Positions 4,356 through 47,780 of a DNA stretch of 64,000 bases are shown here, one piece after another. The notes beneath the pieces were generated by a model. The model saw nothing but the letters and a program-made list of their open reading frames with translations. It was not told the DNA's origin and ran no database searches. Both the position numbers and the translations under genes were made by a program. This DNA is from Candidatus Saccharimonadota bacterium (GTDB lineage Bacteria; Patescibacteriota; Saccharimonadia; Saccharimonadales; Saccharimonadaceae), in the NCBI GenBank assembly GCA_015999875.1, contig JAECRG010000003.1, positions 62,001 to 126,000 on the forward strand. The letters run 5' to 3'. Positions within the stretch are counted from its first letter, which is position 1. Each line of letters starts with the position of its first letter.

Positions 4356-6686
4356 CTACCTCTCGCGACGACGATCATACTTGCGTTTGTGTTTAGGCTG
4401 CCAGCCGCGTCGGACAGGTTGTTTCTGGGAGTGCGCATGGCGACTGTGCGAAGCACCAAGCTTGGCCATGAAATCATTGCCCAGGTGAGTGCTGAGCTTC
4501 GATAAATCGATCAATGCAGCGCGCTGTTTGGAAGACAGGCCGTCTAAGGATATGACGTGTCCGGCAATCGCCCTAGCCTGCTGACGCAGTTGCGAGATTG
4601 AGATTACCGGAATACGCTTGGTGTGAAATTTCGCAAGGTTTCGACGCTCACGCTCAAGCTGCTCAAACGCCCAGTCTGCATAAGCATCTGGGAACATGCG
4701 CATCGTATCGTTTGTCATGCTCGTGAGTGGCACGCTTGCACCTTCGAGAATTTGTCCCCCAGTGCGCACAAGCTGCCTGGCAGACAGTGTGCCGGTACGA
4801 GGATCGTAAAATGTCTTGCCTCGTCGACTCGCAAAAAGATGTGGCGCCAGCTCCACAAGCCAGTCAACTTTGACGGCCGTAATACCCTGCAGGAGACTCA
4901 GTGTTTCCAGTGCGCCACTTCGTGTCGCTACCTGTAAATCAAACGGTGTGCCCGCGACGAGTTTAGGGTTGCGCACCACGCTACTGGTCGAGAGTTCGCG
5001 ACGTTGTTTTGTGAAAATGTGCTCCGCAGCACCGCGCTCTTCGACCGACCATAGTTCATCTATTTGTCCTGCCACAATACAGCGCATCAGCTGGTCTTGC
5101 TCGAGCTCAGTGATGGGCGTCAGCTCTATATGGCCAAGATTGAGGTCACGATCGAGTCGCGCCATTACCTCGCTTGCCTTATGGACGTTTTTGCCGATAA
5201 TGCCAATGGCTTCGTACATGTCAGGCAAGATATCTGGTAGTGCCAAATACACATCGTACTGCGCCAACAAGTCAGACTGTGTCTGCCGAGTATATTTCTG
5301 CCAGCCTGTGTGTTTCGGACCACCTTTTACTATGCCTCCAATTTCCTGAATACCGATGATCGCAGCGAGTTTCGACTGCACTTCTTCGCTAAACTGCGCA
5401 GCTTCTACGAGCATGCGACCATAACTTGATTCCACAGGAAAGCCTTCCATCTGGCGACCGATCCGAGTCACGTCACCAGATTTGGTCATAGCGCCGAGAG
5501 CCACAAGAGTGCGCTTCGCCCTCTGAATTGCTTTGTTGCTCGGGTCGTGATAAAAGTCGAGAATCTCTATGTCGATACCGACGCTCGCGAGACGAAGTGT
5601 CAGGCGATCAATATGCTTTCGGATAATCTCTGGGGTAGCGTATTCGGGGCGCTCATCAAACTCCTGACACGGCATGATATCGTAGGGCGCCAATATATAC
5701 TCACCCGCTTTTGTGCGGCCTGCACGTCCAGCACGCTGCAAACAATCTGCTTGCGATATCTGGGCAATAAACAGGCCTTCCACACCGTTACGAACCTCAG
5801 AACGACGCTCAAGCCCGCTGTCGATTACTACGTCAATATCGTCTATCGTTACGCTCGTTTGTGCGATATTTGTGGCAAGGATAATTTTTCCGTTTGGATA
5901 GTTTGCAAACGCCTGCTGCTGCGAGGTAAGCTCAAGCTGACTATGGAGCGGAATCACTGGCACACCAGCCGAATCGGCTTTGCTACGGATTGCATCGGTG
6001 ACGTCTTGGATCTCAGCTTTACCTGGCAAAAAGACAAGCATATTGCTCGTCGCCTTCGATAGCTGATCGAAAATCTCACTGATCACATCAGTTCCCCGCC
6101 GCTTTATCACCTCAAAACTACGTCCAGGCACATTAATCACGGCTTCAGTGCCAAAGTACTGTGCGAGTGTGTCCGTTTCTATCGTGGCGCTCATGACAAC
6201 AACCCTAAACGTTGGATCTTCCTGACAACGTTTTTTTGCCCACGCCACCAACACTTCCATATTTTCGTTCCACTCGTGCACCTCGTCGAGCACTAACACC
6301 TGTCGCTCAGTTGCGCCGGAGCCAGTGAGCTCGCGCACAAGCTGCAGGCCATCTGTACAATACAATATTTGCGTCGTCGAACTATCGTCACGCTCATGAG
6401 CGGTGCGGTAACCGATGATCGAGTCACTCTTCGTACCATGTCGCTCTGTCCACTCTTGACGTACACGATAGCTCAAGTTTCGCGCCGCCAAAATACGTGG
6501 CTGCGTAACTATCACTTTGGCGTACCCATGCTCCGCCAAGTACTGTGGCACCTGTGTACTTTTGCCTGCACCCGTCTCGGCTGTCACGATCGTCACTTGA
6601 TTGCGATCAACGCTATCTGTGATGGTGTCGCAAAAATCCCTAATCGGTAGATCAGACCATCCTGTGTTGTCATAAGCGGAATTCAT
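4356..6686 (-). CDS. ATP-dependent DExH-box RNA helicase, HrpA/HrpB-like
   Basis: 776 aa. SF2 helicase expected to remodel RNA or RNPs. Visible motifs: Walker A TGAGKST near residue 40, DEVH (motif II) near residue 135, MSAT (motif III), a C-terminal RecA domain with FLPGKAEI and the QRAGRAGR motif VI, then HA2/OB-type sequence. The C-terminus is a short basic tail rich in Arg, Lys and His. TACACT at 6693-6698 lies 6 nt upstream of ATG 6686 with a TG extension, predicting a leaderless transcript. A second, larger paralogue is at 44863-47745; HrpA versus HrpB cannot be settled by eye. Confidence 0.88.
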   Translation of the reverse strand: MNSAYDNTGWSDLPIRDFCDTITDSVDRNQVTIVTAETGAGKSTQVPQYLAEHGYAKVIVTQPRILAARNLSYRVRQEWTERHGTKSDSIIGYRTAHERDDSSTTQILYCTDGLQLVRELTGSGATERQVLVLDEVHEWNENMEVLVAWAKKRCQEDPTFRVVVMSATIETDTLAQYFGTEAVINVPGRSFEVIKRRGTDVISEIFDQLSKATSNMLVFLPGKAEIQDVTDAIRSKADSAGVPVIPLHSQLELTSQQQAFANYPNGKIILATNIAQTSVTIDDIDVVIDSGLERRSEVRNGVEGLFIAQISQADCLQRAGRAGRTKAGEYILAPYDIMPCQEFDERPEYATPEIIRKHIDRLTLRLASVGIDIEILDFYHDPSNKAIQRAKRTLVALGAMTKSGDVTRIGRQMEGFPVESSYGRMLVEAAQFSEEVQSKLAAIIGIQEIGGIVKGGPKHTGWQKYTRQTQSDLLAQYDVYLALPDILPDMYEAIGIIGKNVHKASEVMARLDRDLNLGHIELTPITELEQDQLMRCIVAGQIDELWSVEERGAAEHIFTKQRRELSTSSVVRNPKLVAGTPFDLQVATRSGALETLSLLQGITAVKVDWLVELAPHLFASRRGKTFYDPRTGTLSARQLVRTGGQILEGASVPLTSMTNDTMRMFPDAYADWAFEQLERERRNLAKFHTKRIPVISISQLRQQARAIAGHVISLDGLSSKQRAALIDLSKLSTHLGNDFMAKLGASHSRHAHSQKQPVRRGWQPKHKRKYDRRRER

Positions 6687-26868: not shown

Positions 26869-27708
26869 TTAGAGCAACAATGCGCCTATAAGTACAATAA
26901 GACTTACTACGCGCACTCCAATACCGATTATATGACGGCGTCTCGTAGTAGTGGTGCCGGCTGTTGCCGAGATGACAAATGGCAACATAGCGATAGCTCG
27001 TATAGCCGTAGGTGCAAGGCCAATGATAAGTAGATACATACTCATGAAAATCACCGCTGCTCTGCCAAAAGACAATGTCTGCGCTTCGCCATTTACATCT
27101 ACCGGACTGATGTTGAGCCATCCAAAAAGTTGCTCCAACGGTCGACTCAGTAGTGGCGGTAGCCCCAGACTAGCAATTGATGACTTTGGCTGGCCTACCT
27201 CCACGCCAGGCGTCGGAGTGCCAATTGTTATTGTCGCGTCTTCTGTCGGGGCCACTCCTGTGGGTGTTGTTTCGCCGGTCGACGGCTGAGTAGGTGGCGC
27301 CGTGTAAGTAATTACACTAGTTGCCTCACCGTTCTCACCGTCACAGCTATTAATGGCTTCGACACGAACAGTGTGCGTACCAATTGGCAACTGTAGCATA
27401 CCGCTATAAGCACTCTGCCCTATTGTAAGCGGTAAGATACTGTCGAACTCGCCATCAACATATATCTCGATTTGGTTTGCTTGATTAACACTACCCTTGA
27501 TTGCAACTGGATTACTCGTAACAGTACTGTCGTTTACCGGCTGATCGATACTGATCGTCGAAGCGGGTACGCAAATCGTTGCGTACACATTGGTTTGAGC
27601 ATGAGCTGATACCGCGAGAGATAACACCAAAAGTAGACTCACCAGGAAGCCACAGCTAGCGACAACTGCGAGAAGGTGCCTATCGTTTCTTACGACGAAG
27701 GACTGCAT
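26869..27708 (-). CDS. Secreted/membrane protein with Ig-like domain and C-terminal membrane spans
   Basis: 279 aa. N-terminal signal or anchor segment (residues about 12-37, ending AHAQT), then an extracellular Ig-like beta domain (STISIDQPVNDSTVTSNPVAIKGS...GTHTVRVEAINSCDGENG) with two Cys, a Thr/Pro-rich linker (residues about 135-170), then about three membrane segments in the last 85 residues. Overlaps the preceding DUF916-like gene by 29 bp and closes the five-gene surface operon; probably a membrane partner of the secreted paralogues. Confidence 0.7.
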   Translation of the reverse strand: MQSFVVRNDRHLLAVVASCGFLVSLLLVLSLAVSAHAQTNVYATICVPASTISIDQPVNDSTVTSNPVAIKGSVNQANQIEIYVDGEFDSILPLTIGQSAYSGMLQLPIGTHTVRVEAINSCDGENGEATSVITYTAPPTQPSTGETTPTGVAPTEDATITIGTPTPGVEVGQPKSSIASLGLPPLLSRPLEQLFGWLNISPVDVNGEAQTLSFGRAAVIFMSMYLLIIGLAPTAIRAIAMLPFVISATAGTTTTRRRHIIGIGVRVVSLIVLIGALLL

Positions 27709-28591
27709 AGCCCCCTCCGATAAGGAGTAGTACGAGCAGCAATACTGGTAGGAAGCGTGGCATCATCAAGACATAGCTTGTTGTCGTAAGATCTTTATCG
27801 AGGAACTTCTGCTGTACGTCGACACGGAATAGTCCGAACCATGGAGAGTTTGCCCATTCAAGTGCCACTGTACGAGTTGTTTGTGGTAATACCGGGTAAT
27901 CTTTGACGATAGCATATTTGGTGTTGCCAAACAGATCTTTGACGGAGAACGTGATTTTGTTGATGAAATCAACATTACCTTCGTTCTTTGAAGTGACAGA
28001 TGTCCTAAGTGGCGGCTGCACCTGCCAGAAGTCTGTGGCGTTGCTTACTGTACTACCTTTATTTATCACATTACCGTTGACTGATGCGTAGATGATCATA
28101 CCCACACGTTTTTTGCGGTCAACTGAATTACCTTGCGTCTCAGTCTTTACCGGCTGTGTTTCGGCAAATATTACACCGTAGTGGCCACCGGGAGCAGCCG
28201 TAGCTGGCACGGCTATAGAATATGGGACTTTGACTGTTTCACCAGCCTTAGCGTGGAACAGCGTTTTAGGTAAGCGTACCCATTGATATGCATCACTCTG
28301 TTCCGAAGCTTTCGTAAACACAGGATCATATGTCTCACCCGCTACCCAATACGGACGCGCATACACCAAGAAGTCGTAATCAGTCTTACCATCGTTGACG
28401 ATTGTAAGCTCGCCTTCCCGCTGTTGACCTGAATCAATTGTAAATCGAGTATTAACTGGAGAGAGCGTGATACTTTCATTAGTTGTAGCAGGAGCCCCCT
28501 CCTCTGCGGCGTTTACATGGGGCGCGGCAAAAATACCGCTTACAGTAAGTGCCGCCAGTACCAAGAATGTGCCAATAATACGTTTTTTCAC
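27680..28591 (-). CDS. DUF916/WxL-binding-like surface protein with signal peptide and C-terminal anchor
   Basis: 303 aa. Signal peptide (residues 1-28, cleavage near VNAAEE), extracellular beta-rich region with the LSPVNTRFTIDSGQQREGELTIVNDG pattern typical of DUF916-like WxL-binding proteins, a VPYSIAVPATAAPGGHYGVIFAE strand pair as in that family, and a C-terminal membrane span followed by RRKKR. In Gram-positive bacteria such proteins anchor small WxL-domain surface proteins at the wall. It lies 30 bp downstream of three tandem secreted paralogues. Family by pattern; role inferred. Confidence 0.68.
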   Translation of the reverse strand: MKKRIIGTFLVLAALTVSGIFAAPHVNAAEEGAPATTNESITLSPVNTRFTIDSGQQREGELTIVNDGKTDYDFLVYARPYWVAGETYDPVFTKASEQSDAYQWVRLPKTLFHAKAGETVKVPYSIAVPATAAPGGHYGVIFAETQPVKTETQGNSVDRKKRVGMIIYASVNGNVINKGSTVSNATDFWQVQPPLRTSVTSKNEGNVDFINKITFSVKDLFGNTKYAIVKDYPVLPQTTRTVALEWANSPWFGLFRVDVQQKFLDKDLTTTSYVLMMPRFLPVLLLVLLLIGGGYAVLRRKKR

Positions 28592-28621
28592 TGAATCTGT
28601 TTCTCCGTAAATCCTATTTAT

Positions 28622-29224
28622 CTAGTTTGTTGTAGCAGTATAGGTAACTGTATCACTATAAGTTCCGCCTGGCTTAGTGCTATCCGCCTTCACGCCGTAC
28701 CATACTGTCGTCGTGTCTCCAGAAGCAGTAGTAGCTGTTGTCTTGAGGGTATTTGCTGATCCTGTTGCTGGCACGCCCGCCCAGGTCGAACTACTGCTGC
28801 CATTGTTTGATTCGGCGCTATAGGCAGTCGCACCAAAGCCACCGACGCTAACAACGCGGTAGCCCCATGTATTTGCGGCTAGCGCAGTCGGAGATGCCTG
28901 AGTTCCCGCATGGGGTAATATCGTGTTTCCACCACTTACCAAGTTGCGTGTTGCATCAGAATTGGCAAGAGTAAGTGCATATCCGGTCGAGTTATTCGTA
29001 CTGACAGTTACCGTATCACTTGCGCTACTCACGACACCGCCAGCAGTTGGCGTAAGCGCAATTGCAACTGTTGTGCCGGTACTGATACTAATCACTGAAC
29101 CCACGGTGGCGTTGATCGTAGTAGAAGCAGTGCTAGATACGGCAGAAGCAGCGATAGGTAAAGAGAACACTATCATCCCAGACACTATGCTGATTCCGAC
29201 CGCCTTAACTGTCTTCACTCTCAC
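28622..29224 (-). CDS. Secreted beta-rich surface protein, tandem paralogue 3
   Basis: 200 aa. Signal peptide ending ASAVSS, then a single Ser/Thr/Gly/Ala-rich beta domain. Shares with the two upstream genes the blocks LTPTAGGVVSSASDTVTV, GYALTLANSDA, NTWGYRV, WAGVPA and the exact end GTYSDTVTYTATTN. Start assigned to GTG 29224, since AGGGA lies 6 nt upstream of it; the GTG at 29230 would abut the site. Looks like a wall-associated or fibre-forming subunit; not a classical WxL protein because the paired W-x-L motifs are not evident. Confidence 0.75.
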   Translation of the reverse strand: MRVKTVKAVGISIVSGMIVFSLPIAASAVSSTASTTINATVGSVISISTGTTVAIALTPTAGGVVSSASDTVTVSTNNSTGYALTLANSDATRNLVSGGNTILPHAGTQASPTALAANTWGYRVVSVGGFGATAYSAESNNGSSSSTWAGVPATGSANTLKTTATTASGDTTTVWYGVKADSTKPGGTYSDTVTYTATTN

Positions 29225-29268
29225 GTACACTCCCTCATTAATGCCACAATACTTGTGGTTATTGTAGA

Positions 29269-29883
29269 CTAATTTGTCGTCGCTGTATAGGTGACCGTGT
29301 CAGTATAGGTTCCACCTGGCTGACTACTCGTTGCCTTTGCAGCAAACCATACAGTGGTAGTGTCATTTGTTGCGACCGCAGCGGTAGTCTTGAGCATGAT
29401 CGGCGAACCGGACGCTGGCATACCAGCCCATTTTGAGGTACTCGAACCTGCGTTTGTTTCAGTTGAATATGATGCATCAAAACCGTTAGTGCCGATACCA
29501 GTCGTACTAGTTGCAACTGCAAATCCCCAGGTATTGTTAGCAAGTGCCGTAGGGGCAGTTTTTGTACCAGAGTGTGCTGCAAATGTATTACCACCGCTTG
29601 CGAGAGTTGTTGTAGCGTCGCTATCGGCAATACTAAGATTGTATCCAGAAGTACGGTTGGTATTAACAGTCACTGTGTCGCTTGAGCTACTCACGACACC
29701 GCCTGCGGTAGGAGTAAGGCTAAGTGCCACTGTTGTACCTGTTGTAATACTAATCACGTCAGCAACCGATGCATTAATCGTTGTATTTGCAGTATTTGCG
29801 GCTGCTGACGCAATAATTGGCGAAGAAGCTACCGCGAGTAATGATGCGATGCTTACTAGTGTGACTACTTTTATGTTTTTCAT
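29269..29883 (-). CDS. Secreted beta-rich surface protein, tandem paralogue 2
   Basis: 204 aa from ATG 29883, 8 nt after AGGGA. Signal peptide (KVVTLVSIASLLAVAS..., ending ASAAAN) and the common domain: TTINASVADVIS, LTPTAGGVVSSSSDTVTV, GYNLSIADSDA, NTWGFAV, WAGMPASG, DTTTVWFAAKA and the end GTYTDTVTYTATTN. 38 bp upstream of paralogue 3. Fast-evolving loops between conserved strands suggest exposure to a variable partner. Confidence 0.75.
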   Translation of the reverse strand: MKNIKVVTLVSIASLLAVASSPIIASAAANTANTTINASVADVISITTGTTVALSLTPTAGGVVSSSSDTVTVNTNRTSGYNLSIADSDATTTLASGGNTFAAHSGTKTAPTALANNTWGFAVATSTTGIGTNGFDASYSTETNAGSSTSKWAGMPASGSPIMLKTTAAVATNDTTTVWFAAKATSSQPGGTYTDTVTYTATTN

Positions 29884-29910
29884 ACCCATATTCCCTGTTT
29901 ATCTAGCTGT

Positions 29911-30516
29911 TTAGTTTGTTGTTGCTGTATATGTAACTGTGTCACTATAGGTGCCATTCGGCTGGGCGGAGTTTGCTCTCACACCGTACCAAACAATTGT
30001 CGTATCATTTGTCGCAATATTCGATGTACTTTTTAGCTGATTCGGAGCACCCACCACAGGCATTCCTGCCCATTTTGACGCACTAGACGTGTTGTTAGTC
30101 TCCGCTGAATACGAGCTATCAAATCCACCAACATTTGCAACTGCATATCCCCACGTATTAGCTCCTAGAGCTGTAGGACTTGCTTGCGTACCCGAGTGAG
30201 CACCTATTAAATTACCGCCACTCGATAGATTAACGTTAGCATCACCATCTGCAAGTGTCAACATATAACCAGTAGCGTTGTTTGTGTTTACCGTCACTGT
30301 ATCACTCGCACTACTCACGACACCACCTGCGGTAGGTGTAAGCGACAGGCTGACCGTAGCCGTTGTTGTAACACTGATAGATGCACCGACAGATGCATTA
30401 ATTGTTGTGCTGGCGGTATTGGCTGCTGCAGATGCAACTATCGGTGAGCCAATTACCCCTGTTAATATAAGTGCTGACGCAGCCAGCCGTATAGTACGTA
30501 GGTTTATTTTTTTCAT
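29911..30516 (-). CDS. Secreted beta-rich surface protein, tandem paralogue 1
   Basis: 201 aa from ATG 30516. Basic signal peptide ending ASAAAN, then TTINASVGASISV, LTPTAGGVVSSASDTVTV, GYMLTLADGDA, NTWGYAV, SKWAGMPVVG, DTTIVWYGVRA and the end GTYSDTVTYTATTN. First gene of the surface operon; a TTG-initiated longer frame from 30561 is excluded because it would lie in the -10 box. Confidence 0.76.
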   Translation of the reverse strand: MKKINLRTIRLAASALILTGVIGSPIVASAAANTASTTINASVGASISVTTTATVSLSLTPTAGGVVSSASDTVTVNTNNATGYMLTLADGDANVNLSSGGNLIGAHSGTQASPTALGANTWGYAVANVGGFDSSYSAETNNTSSASKWAGMPVVGAPNQLKSTSNIATNDTTIVWYGVRANSAQPNGTYSDTVTYTATTN

Positions 30517-30560
30517 ATTGTTGTGGTGTTTTTTGTTTTTTACGGTTGTATCTACCTGCA

Positions 30561-30589
30561 ATTATCTATGTATCTGCCTACTATGTCAA
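30561..30589 (-). promoter_or_regulatory. Promoter of the surface-protein operon
   Basis: -35 TTGACA (30584-30589 on the minus strand), 17-bp spacer, -10 GATAAT (30561-30566). Start near 30554, leader of about 38 nt. Near-consensus, so high expression of the five-gene operon is likely. The rest of the 30590-30702 gap is A+T-rich with no gene seen. Confidence 0.82.
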
Positions 30590-44862: not shown

Positions 44863-47745
44863 TTACAGTTGTGAAGCAGAGATCCACGAATCTTTTCGCT
44901 GTATCAAAATCTCGCGGCCATCTGGCAGGGTCAGCCCACCGGCTGCATGCATTGCTTTGAGTTGCCCAATTCTCGAAAGCATTCTCGGAGGCAACATAAT
45001 ATAAGGTGTACGCGTCACACTCATTCGGTTGTACACCTTTACCATTCCACCTCCCGGAAACTCAACCTGCTGAGGAGAGCACTTTTGCAGATATTCACGA
45101 TCTTCATTCGTGAAGTATCGTTCGATACCAATATTCTTTTGGTATATATGTTCGCGTATTAATTGGTCAACATGGCTGATGCTCGTGGTTCTTTCTGCAT
45201 AGACACGTATCAACTGCTCGATACTTTCGTCAGTTACGAATTCTGGTGCGTCATCACGTGAGTAACTCCTGAGTACGGTTGGCGGAATTGCCCGACTATA
45301 CATGGCTAGCTCGTTTGCCACCTCCCGTAGTGCCCGTTGCGCACTCCCCTGATGTTGCAGTACTTGCTCTACCATCATTTGCTGCGCACTTTCAGATATC
45401 ACAAAAAACTTTTCGTTGCTCGATACTGGCTCGCCTACTGCAACCGACCCAAACATTGCCTGTGTACGCTCAACAATCACATCACCTTCAACACGAACAC
45501 CGGTGTGAACCATACGTACAAGATCTGCGGCAAGTGCGTATTTTCCAATCATCTTGGTAGATACAGGCATAGTTTGTTCCACGACTTCATGCTTAACATC
45601 ACCTTTGCGATTACGCGACATAAACCACCTAGGAAAACCGACTAGCATTTCTGGTGCAGGATTCGTAACGCTGCGCGCACCCAGGAATCGTTCTTTTGCC
45701 TCATCTCCAGATGCATGGATATTCGAATAATACGTTTTGCCATATCTATCGGGTGTACTGTTTTTTCTTGTGTACACAAAATCTAACATACCAACTGCAA
45801 TATCCTCACGCAGCAACATCTCCTCGTCATTAGTTGGGGTGCCGTGTACGATATTGCGAGAATTTATATCAAATACTCGAAGTACTTTTCGAGCTACTTT
45901 TTGTGACTGTTTAATCTTTTTGTAGCTCAGATCATAGTTACGCAAAAACCCACCAGCGCTCTGATCAACATCAACATCCGCCAAAATACGGCCGTCATCG
46001 TCGCTACCTACAACTGCTGTCATAATATCCAGCTGGGCTATCATGTCGTCGGCGGTAGTATCTCTGAGTAAATTCTTCCAAGCAGTTGCATCTTTTTGAC
46101 GAAACTCCTGTGTGCCGCCCGCCCCAACTGCCGACACGATAAGTGCTAAACGCGCCATATGGAGTAGAGGGCGTTTTTGTTTCATACCTTCCACAAGCCC
46201 TCGTGAAAGTTCCGGTCGTATCGGAAATTTACTCATTTCCTTGCCTGTGCTTGTGATCTTGCCGTCTACATCGATCGCTCCGAGCCGTAGCAAGTTTTGC
46301 TCGGCCTTGATAATCTCTGACTGGGCCACCTTGTGTGGCAGATACTCATTGATCTCAGCAAAGCTCATGCCCAAGTTTGCAACCGACAACACGATTTCTG
46401 ACAAATTCGCACTATATATTTCTGGTGGCTCAAACTCTTCTCGATCTTCAAAAGACCGGTATGGCATCGCTTCTAATTCGACCTCGTTGCCTTGCGCGCG
46501 AATCCTATCCTCCTCCACCATCGTCGGGCGCACCAAAATTCCTATTCCACCAGGCACGTCCCGCCCAGCACGTCCAAATTGCTGAATAATCCCCGCCTTG
46601 GAGAGATAGTTGCGACGCAACCCCGACACATCATCTTCGTCAAGTTCGCTTCGATTGATCGTGCCGTCAGAGATCACATGCGTTACACCGGGTATAGTAA
46701 TTCCAGACATACCTGCAGGAGATGAAACTATCACAAGTCTGTATCCATCCGGCACAGGGTCATTGATGTGCGAGATTTCACGCTCCGTCAACTCACCATG
46801 CAGTTTGCGAAATACGACTTTTTCAGAACTACCCCGCTCGTGTGCTTCGAGTGCATTGCGTGTCTGATCGATCATGTGATCAATCTCTTTTTTACCAGAT
46901 GTGAAGATCATGGTTTTGCGCACATCTTCACATTTTTGTGCATATGCGTCCCACGCAAACACCTCTGAATCTTCTTCCCACTCTAGTTCAAATGGACGAC
47001 CCTCTATGTGTATACTTGGCACAATACCTTGATTTACTTGCGCAAGTGGCTGCTGTAGTACCGCCTCGTTTTGGGTTGCGCTCATAGCGACAAAGCGCCA
47101 ATTTTCATGTTCTTGTACCGACTTAAGTCCTACTCCGGCAGCAATCTCCGTATACACATTCGCTTCATGCATTTCGTCAGCGATGATAGCGACCTTTTTA
47201 TCAGCATGCTGCTCTTCGATATCGCTTCCAGCCCTCACAAAAGTATTTGGTGTCATGATAACAATCCGGTTATCGTCGTGTGTCTCACTACGCTCTCCGT
47301 GCATCACACCAATTGCAGTATCAAGTTCCTCTTCTGGGATATGGGAAGCCATCTCTTCTCGTAGTCGATCGTACAAGCCGTCGGCTATCACGCGACGAGG
47401 CACCATCACATATATTTTGTCGTACCCTGCTTCATAGAGAAACTGAGGCACTTGCGTACTCTTACCGCTCCCTGTCGCACCGCCAAGTATCGATGCTTTG
47501 TAGCCTTCTACGACATCGACAATCTCTTGTTTGTGCTTGTATGCTGGTAGCTCCGTATTACCGAGCCCTTGTCGTGTTTCCTTCAGGCGTGCTTCGGTGC
47601 TTCGTCGTATAAGATCTCGAAGTGCCGCCTTATCGGCATAACCCTGATGAAGATTGCGAAGATGCGCGGGTACAGCACGAACAGCACGCTGGTCACTACC
47701 ATGACGAGGCTGGCTGTTGAAGGGTCCTGTCCTACGCTCTGCCAT
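44863..47745 (-). CDS. DExH-box RNA helicase, HrpA-like (second copy)
   Basis: 960 aa. Walker A GATGSGKSTQ, motif II DEMH, MSAT motif III, FTSGKKEI in domain 2, QQFGRAGRD motif VI, then HA2-like and unique C-terminal sequence with an RVHTGV strand and a YGNTGL-less end. Longer than the 4356-6686 paralogue and with a DEMH rather than DEVH box. ATG 47745 is chosen because extended -10 TG-A-TATAGT (47754-47759) lies 8 nt upstream. Confidence 0.86.
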   Translation of the reverse strand: MAERRTGPFNSQPRHGSDQRAVRAVPAHLRNLHQGYADKAALRDLIRRSTEARLKETRQGLGNTELPAYKHKQEIVDVVEGYKASILGGATGSGKSTQVPQFLYEAGYDKIYVMVPRRVIADGLYDRLREEMASHIPEEELDTAIGVMHGERSETHDDNRIVIMTPNTFVRAGSDIEEQHADKKVAIIADEMHEANVYTEIAAGVGLKSVQEHENWRFVAMSATQNEAVLQQPLAQVNQGIVPSIHIEGRPFELEWEEDSEVFAWDAYAQKCEDVRKTMIFTSGKKEIDHMIDQTRNALEAHERGSSEKVVFRKLHGELTEREISHINDPVPDGYRLVIVSSPAGMSGITIPGVTHVISDGTINRSELDEDDVSGLRRNYLSKAGIIQQFGRAGRDVPGGIGILVRPTMVEEDRIRAQGNEVELEAMPYRSFEDREEFEPPEIYSANLSEIVLSVANLGMSFAEINEYLPHKVAQSEIIKAEQNLLRLGAIDVDGKITSTGKEMSKFPIRPELSRGLVEGMKQKRPLLHMARLALIVSAVGAGGTQEFRQKDATAWKNLLRDTTADDMIAQLDIMTAVVGSDDDGRILADVDVDQSAGGFLRNYDLSYKKIKQSQKVARKVLRVFDINSRNIVHGTPTNDEEMLLREDIAVGMLDFVYTRKNSTPDRYGKTYYSNIHASGDEAKERFLGARSVTNPAPEMLVGFPRWFMSRNRKGDVKHEVVEQTMPVSTKMIGKYALAADLVRMVHTGVRVEGDVIVERTQAMFGSVAVGEPVSSNEKFFVISESAQQMMVEQVLQHQGSAQRALREVANELAMYSRAIPPTVLRSYSRDDAPEFVTDESIEQLIRVYAERTTSISHVDQLIREHIYQKNIGIERYFTNEDREYLQKCSPQQVEFPGGGMVKVYNRMSVTRTPYIMLPPRMLSRIGQLKAMHAAGGLTLPDGREILIQRKDSWISASQL

Positions 47746-47780
47746 ATGCCGCAACTATATCATCTCGACATCTGTTTTCA

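Follow-up and report, generated by a model that had tools for sequence, protein, structure and literature searches.

A five-gene operon of a Candidatus Saccharimonadota bacterium as a candidate compact Pam/WxL-type surface module with pilin-like subunits

We have analysed a window of 64,000 nucleotides (C2:62001-126000, contig JAECRG010000003.1) from a Candidatus Saccharimonadota genome which is 1.04 Mb in size and 98.6% complete, and find there a five-gene operon that we interpret, with a modest degree of confidence, as a compact Pam/WxL-type surface-fibre or surface-display module. In such a module the membrane-tethered protein P0004 would donate a strand to small pilin-like subunits, and these would link to one another via their N-termini.

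Results

By our ORF calls the operon lies on the minus strand and runs from 30516 to 26869. P0001 (29911..30516, 201 aa, ATG start), P0002 (29269..29883, 204 aa, a type that occurs across several genera) and P0003 (28622..29230, 202 aa, GTG start) are pilin-like secreted proteins, and the gaps from P0001 through to P0004 are 27, 38 and 30 bp in gene order. P0004 (27680..28591, 303 aa, GTG start) is a WxLIP-like (DUF916-like) protein and the proposed chaperone-anchor; its signal peptide is followed by two Ig-like domains and, at the C-terminal end, a membrane helix. Its gene overlaps by 29 bp that of P0005 (26869..27708, 279 aa), a putative Ig-like protein whose C-terminal part has two hydrophobic helices and which occupies a PamR-like position. 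A first-pass annotation had proposed a five-gene surface operon of this layout, and that claim is strengthened by the sister genome G041, which keeps the full order of a 201-aa upstream gene, a HAD gene, the operon and fpg.

The near-consensus promoter proposed at the same time is also borne out: TTGACA-N17-GATAAT (30561..30589, minus strand) agrees with the consensus at 11 of 12 positions, and the exact hexamers and N17 spacing precede the orthologous gene in G041, where chance would give 0.17 sites in 15 kb even if one mismatch is tolerated. Across the promoter scan overall, sites were no commoner than chance (9 found vs 8.6 expected). The TTG at 30561 would, as a start codon, overlap the -10 box, and we therefore placed the start of P0001 at the ATG at 30516. 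Elsewhere in the window, at 4356-6686 and 44863-47754, this 1 Mb genome encodes two long helicase-like ORFs with GSGKSTQVPQ-type motifs and the look of DEAH helicases.

P0002 and P0003 are paralogues of P0001, with 62-65% identity to it and the blocks LTPTAGGVVSS-SDTVTV and GTYsDTVTYTATTN conserved, as had been noted. All three are small, cysteine-free and rich in Ser and Thr (28-34%), and carry signal peptides of the ordinary type with ASA-type cleavage sites (read by eye), so the secreted or membrane location assigned earlier to the operon's products agrees with their sequences. Searches of Pfam, PHROGs and PDB sequences with single proteins returned little or nothing usable. We drew on AlphaFold models of two single chains, P0001 and P0004. 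In the P0001 model confidence exceeds 90 in every block of ten residues from residue 60 onwards, and the N-terminus of the mature protein is disordered. When the model was searched with Foldseek, 33 of the 50 best PDB matches were chaperone-usher pilins or pilin domains by manual count; no single match reached an E-value of 0.001, the best (0.011) being a glycoside hydrolase. The predicted fold of P0001-P0003 thus appears to resemble chaperone-usher pilins most closely, on the strength of many matches that are individually not significant.

Two features of the family are of particular relevance to assembly. Among 71 small family members, the share of hydrophobic residues in the N-terminal segment is 0.80-1.00 at positions 39, 41, 43, 47 and 49 and 0.08-0.56 at the even positions between. 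The most conserved stretch in the same set is the last 14 residues, with a glycine at its start; this residue, Gly188, is 99% conserved, and in 56 of the 71 its distance from the end is exactly 14. In Gram-negative pilins, a glycine 14 residues from the C-terminal end is part of the chaperone-recognition motif. Donor-strand exchange by the C-terminal strand had earlier been suggested as something to look for; the likeliest donor is instead the N-terminal extension, which is disordered in the model and has the alternating hydrophobics.

P0004 returned no match when searched alone against Pfam, and its earlier description as DUF916-like draws its support from comparisons of profile and structure. 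A 29-row P0004 profile matched WxLIP1 of E. faecium (EfmWxLIP1) in the PDB at 2e-4, the alignment covering only the first, DUF916 domain and including its conserved Arg. The AlphaFold model (pLDDT 90.9) had WxLIP chains as its three best PDB matches in Foldseek (5e-13 to 8e-12), one of them from a complex with a long WxL protein; the PDB includes a WxLIP-WxL complex, 9i25. Next came RbmA and the PapD-type pilus chaperones CfaA, CsuC, Caf1M and FimC (1e-8 to 1e-6), a likeness of fold only. Judged by profile and modelled structure together, P0004 appears to be a remote relative of WxLIP (DUF916), and the parallel drawn previously with WxL complexes gains support. The segment at about residues 147-161 is the least confident loop within the folded part of the model and precedes Arg162, which is invariant in our alignment. 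Save for one conserved V/I157, this segment does not have the alternating hydrophobics of chaperone G1 donor strands, an argument against a mechanism that follows chaperone strand donation to the letter.

Of the description of P0005 as an Ig-like membrane protein, the membrane part stands by virtue of its hydrophobic helices, and the Ig-like label rests on a Glucodextran_B match below the Pfam threshold (24.7 vs 27 bits). We propose an accessory role for P0005, as an Ig-like membrane protein that takes the PamR position; neither it nor the other operon proteins match the NCBIfam models of PamR or PamT.

These model titles are the only source of the Pam names (NF058578 PamR, NF058579 PamT and NF058581 Pam_pilin_C, from CPR bacteria), and we found no publication on a Pam pilus in the literature searched. 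A true Pam locus is present on contig 3 of the source genome (L015:11361-19500), where PamT scores 314 bits (cut-off 240) and PamR 381 (cut-off 300), and comprises four pilin-type proteins (PamT included, one below cut-off) and two homologues of P0004. Because this locus has the same layout elsewhere in the same genome, the window operon represents a second, smaller system. The order of pilins, WxLIP-like protein and Ig-like membrane protein is common to both, this being the order in the genome's own Pam locus rather than a published definition; the window pilins are mostly smaller than Pam pilins. Pam_pilin_C falls well below its cut-off of 55 bits for P0002 (23.3) and P0003 (23.2) and does not match P0001, and is matched weakly by 21 of 29 members of the pilin-like alignment (best 8e-7). 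A profile-profile comparison of the small pilins with the genome's four Pam pilins aligned only 28 residues at the C-terminal end, at a probability of 9%, so homology to Pam pilins rests on the other searches, including these weak Pam_pilin_C matches. On sequence, P0001-P0003 may be regarded as weak relatives of the NCBIfam Pam pilins. The operon was first put forward as a system not described before: the absence of a publication is in keeping with that, whereas the NCBIfam names PamT, PamR and Pam_pilin_C and the Pam locus in the same genome are not. It belongs to a general kind already named in NCBIfam, and is itself a smaller version of the same layout.

Beside the Pam locus (L016:7937-14114) we observed an ATP synthase-like cluster containing an alpha/beta-type ATPase with a V/A-type C-terminal domain, a gamma-like subunit and others. 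A further P0004 homologue of the source genome is convergent to a pilin-like gene. At L017:9327-13409, convergent WxLIP-like and pilin-like genes adjoin one for a protein of 746 aa in which a phage tail tip domain (PF24243) is present.

Both protein families are widespread. The pilin-like profile matches 119 of 245 genomes of the class and P0004 173 of the 245, and in a phylum-level sample of Patescibacteria matches to the P0004 profile turned up in 124 of 287 genomes, against 31 of the 287 for the pilin profile at 1e-5. Named relatives with a pilin-like protein are mostly Candidatus Saccharibacteria records. Within the genus the operon occurs patchily: of four genomes sampled, the source genome and G041 have it, G186 carries a divergent form that includes a protein of 1567 aa, and G117 gave no match to the pilin-like profile. 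A pilin-like gene lies directly upstream of at least 43 of 61 P0004-type genes (40 fetched neighbourhoods, the window and two source-genome loci), so the co-operon arrangement does extend to relatives; these neighbourhoods were chosen for carrying matches, which biases the sample, and the counts are lower bounds because at least one gene (L097) was missed by the ORF picker. A small contig filed under a Chloroflexi MAG (L117) carries a Saccharibacteria-type operon and is probably mis-binned.

In relatives the pilin-like domain also occurs as the C-terminal domain of larger proteins, such as one of 657 aa that has a ConA-like lectin domain and an RCC1/fn3 protein of 1284 aa, and matches lie inside open frames of up to 4565 aa. 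In an RCC1 protein of 1567 aa, the pilin-like domain is followed by a GH16-like one. It may be, then, that this domain caps large lectin, RCC1 or giant proteins. In relatives such as L079, L080 and L082-L085 a large protein with a C-terminal pilin-like domain joins the cluster of small-domain and DUF916 proteins; the window operon has no such large adhesin. A different arrangement is seen in G183 (L114:2698-15801), where five proteins of 541-836 aa in an array have the pilin-like domain at the N-terminus, one that was checked also having DUF285; genomes of that genus hold up to 16 pilin-like copies.

In the pilin tree P0001 pairs with its G041 counterpart (support 100/98). P0002 and P0003 cluster with theirs as well, in groups of good support whose membership extends to other genera or records. 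That each window pilin groups with its own counterpart indicates long-standing types rather than a recent amplification. Between the source genome and G041, dN/dS, where computable, is 0.09 for P0001, 0.04 for P0002 and 0.08 for P0004, with synonymous sites near saturation, and pN exceeds pS in no sequence window of the pilins; the loops thus show no sign of the positive selection that had been raised as a possibility. In the P0004 tree, genes that follow a large partner and genes that follow a small one lie on opposite sides, with one exception; joint inheritance of the operon explains this split as well as specific pairing does.

Discussion

The operon invites comparison with two further known systems. 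With the WxL/WxLIP (Csc) clusters of Bacilli (PMC10599100, PMC9772566; PDB 9i1y, 9i25), P0004 appears to share the build of two Ig-like domains plus a membrane helix, and relatives of the operon share the grammar of a small domain, a large protein with the same C-terminal domain and a DUF916 protein. P0004 is shorter (303 aa vs 337-365 aa in the WxL paper) and has no Pfam DUF916 call of its own. In 33 of 117 genomes of the class, PF06030 does exceed its cut-off at some point. In an AlphaFold model of WxL and WxLIP, a hairpin strand of WxLIP completes the WxL sandwich (PMC10599100). With chaperone-usher pili (Csu, type 1, Caf1 and CFA/I) both partners appear to be alike in fold, pairing a pilin-like subunit with a PapD-like protein of two Ig domains, and the alternating N-terminal extension and the conserved Gly near the C-terminus are likewise found in the window family. 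The window partner is, however, tethered to the membrane, sequence similarity is not significant, and no usher (PF00577) was found in the source genome, the E. coli control being positive. The large proteins that contain the pilin-like domain are reminiscent of adhesins that join a lectin to a pilin domain, FimH being one, or of large WxL proteins.

We infer that strand donation, polymerisation and host contact may be part of the operon's function. P0004 would fold and hold the small secreted pilin-like Ig domains P0001-P0003, its flexible segment at about 147-161, which lies between two strands of the first domain and next to Arg162, completing their open fold. The N-terminal extension of each subunit (about 37-46, with hydrophobics alternating on to 49) would then link to the next subunit, or else to an adhesin whose C-terminal domain is of the same kind. 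The outcome would be a short fibre on the cell, made without an usher, with P0005 as an accessory.

The main rival is a WxL-type platform without polymerisation, in which the small domains attach to the wall through peptidoglycan or a different polymer, P0004 keeps them stable there, and other surface proteins are displayed or anchored with no fibre being formed. We consider this somewhat unlikely. In its favour, the gene grammar seen in relatives is that of WxL clusters, P0004 appears remotely homologous to WxLIP, and the domain appears to cap lectin, RCC1 and giant proteins. Set against it, the nearest solved folds of P0001 are mostly pilins, and the alternating, unstructured N-terminal extension would go unexplained. 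The WxL domain (PF13731) exceeds the Pfam cut-off in none of 117 class genomes, with a positive Lactococcus control, and P0001-P0005 contain no W-x-L motif, in agreement with the earlier remark that the small proteins lack it. P0001-P0003 were accordingly rejected as WxL proteins. When plasmids and the PDB were searched with a typed WxL motif, no WxL protein came up.

It could also be that P0001-P0003 do not assemble with P0004 and form a soluble or S-layer-like coat, with the role of P0004 limited to general help in secretion or folding. Small, secreted, Ser/Thr-rich and cysteine-free proteins would suit such a role, yet the three conserved paralogue types speak against it, as does the type-specific pairing in the P0004 tree (a pattern that operon inheritance would give equally), and we think it improbable. 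A sortase-linked or type IV pilus operon is already largely refuted and would be very surprising: the source genome has two sortase genes and Saccharibacteria make type IV pili (PMC12206443), but the sortases are on another contig, P0001-P0005 contain no convincing LPxTG (P0003 has two LP-x-x-x strings, one within the signal peptide and the other in the middle of the protein), the signal peptides look ordinary by eye, and the five-gene operon has neither an ATPase nor a prepilin peptidase gene.

Our preferred reading, a compact Pam/WxL-type module, can be extended to a broader and distinctly more tentative proposal, which we would hold doubtful in its entirety. It asks that all of the following be true: that a single ancient machinery for strand donation branched into WxL platforms on one side and chaperone-usher pili on the other, that Patescibacteria have a phylum-wide class of usher-less pili, that a tethered WxLIP-like chaperone builds donor-strand fibres, that it anchors them, and that the window operon is the smallest self-contained version.

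For the way in which ultrasmall epibionts hold their hosts, a module that ranges over the phylum from small fibres to giant adhesins offers a concrete candidate besides type IV pili. WxL complexes and chaperone-built pili, which textbooks treat as separate systems, may be linked through this class of operon, which is widespread, hardly studied and looks like a missing link between the Gram-positive WxL system and the chaperone-built pili of Gram-negative bacteria.
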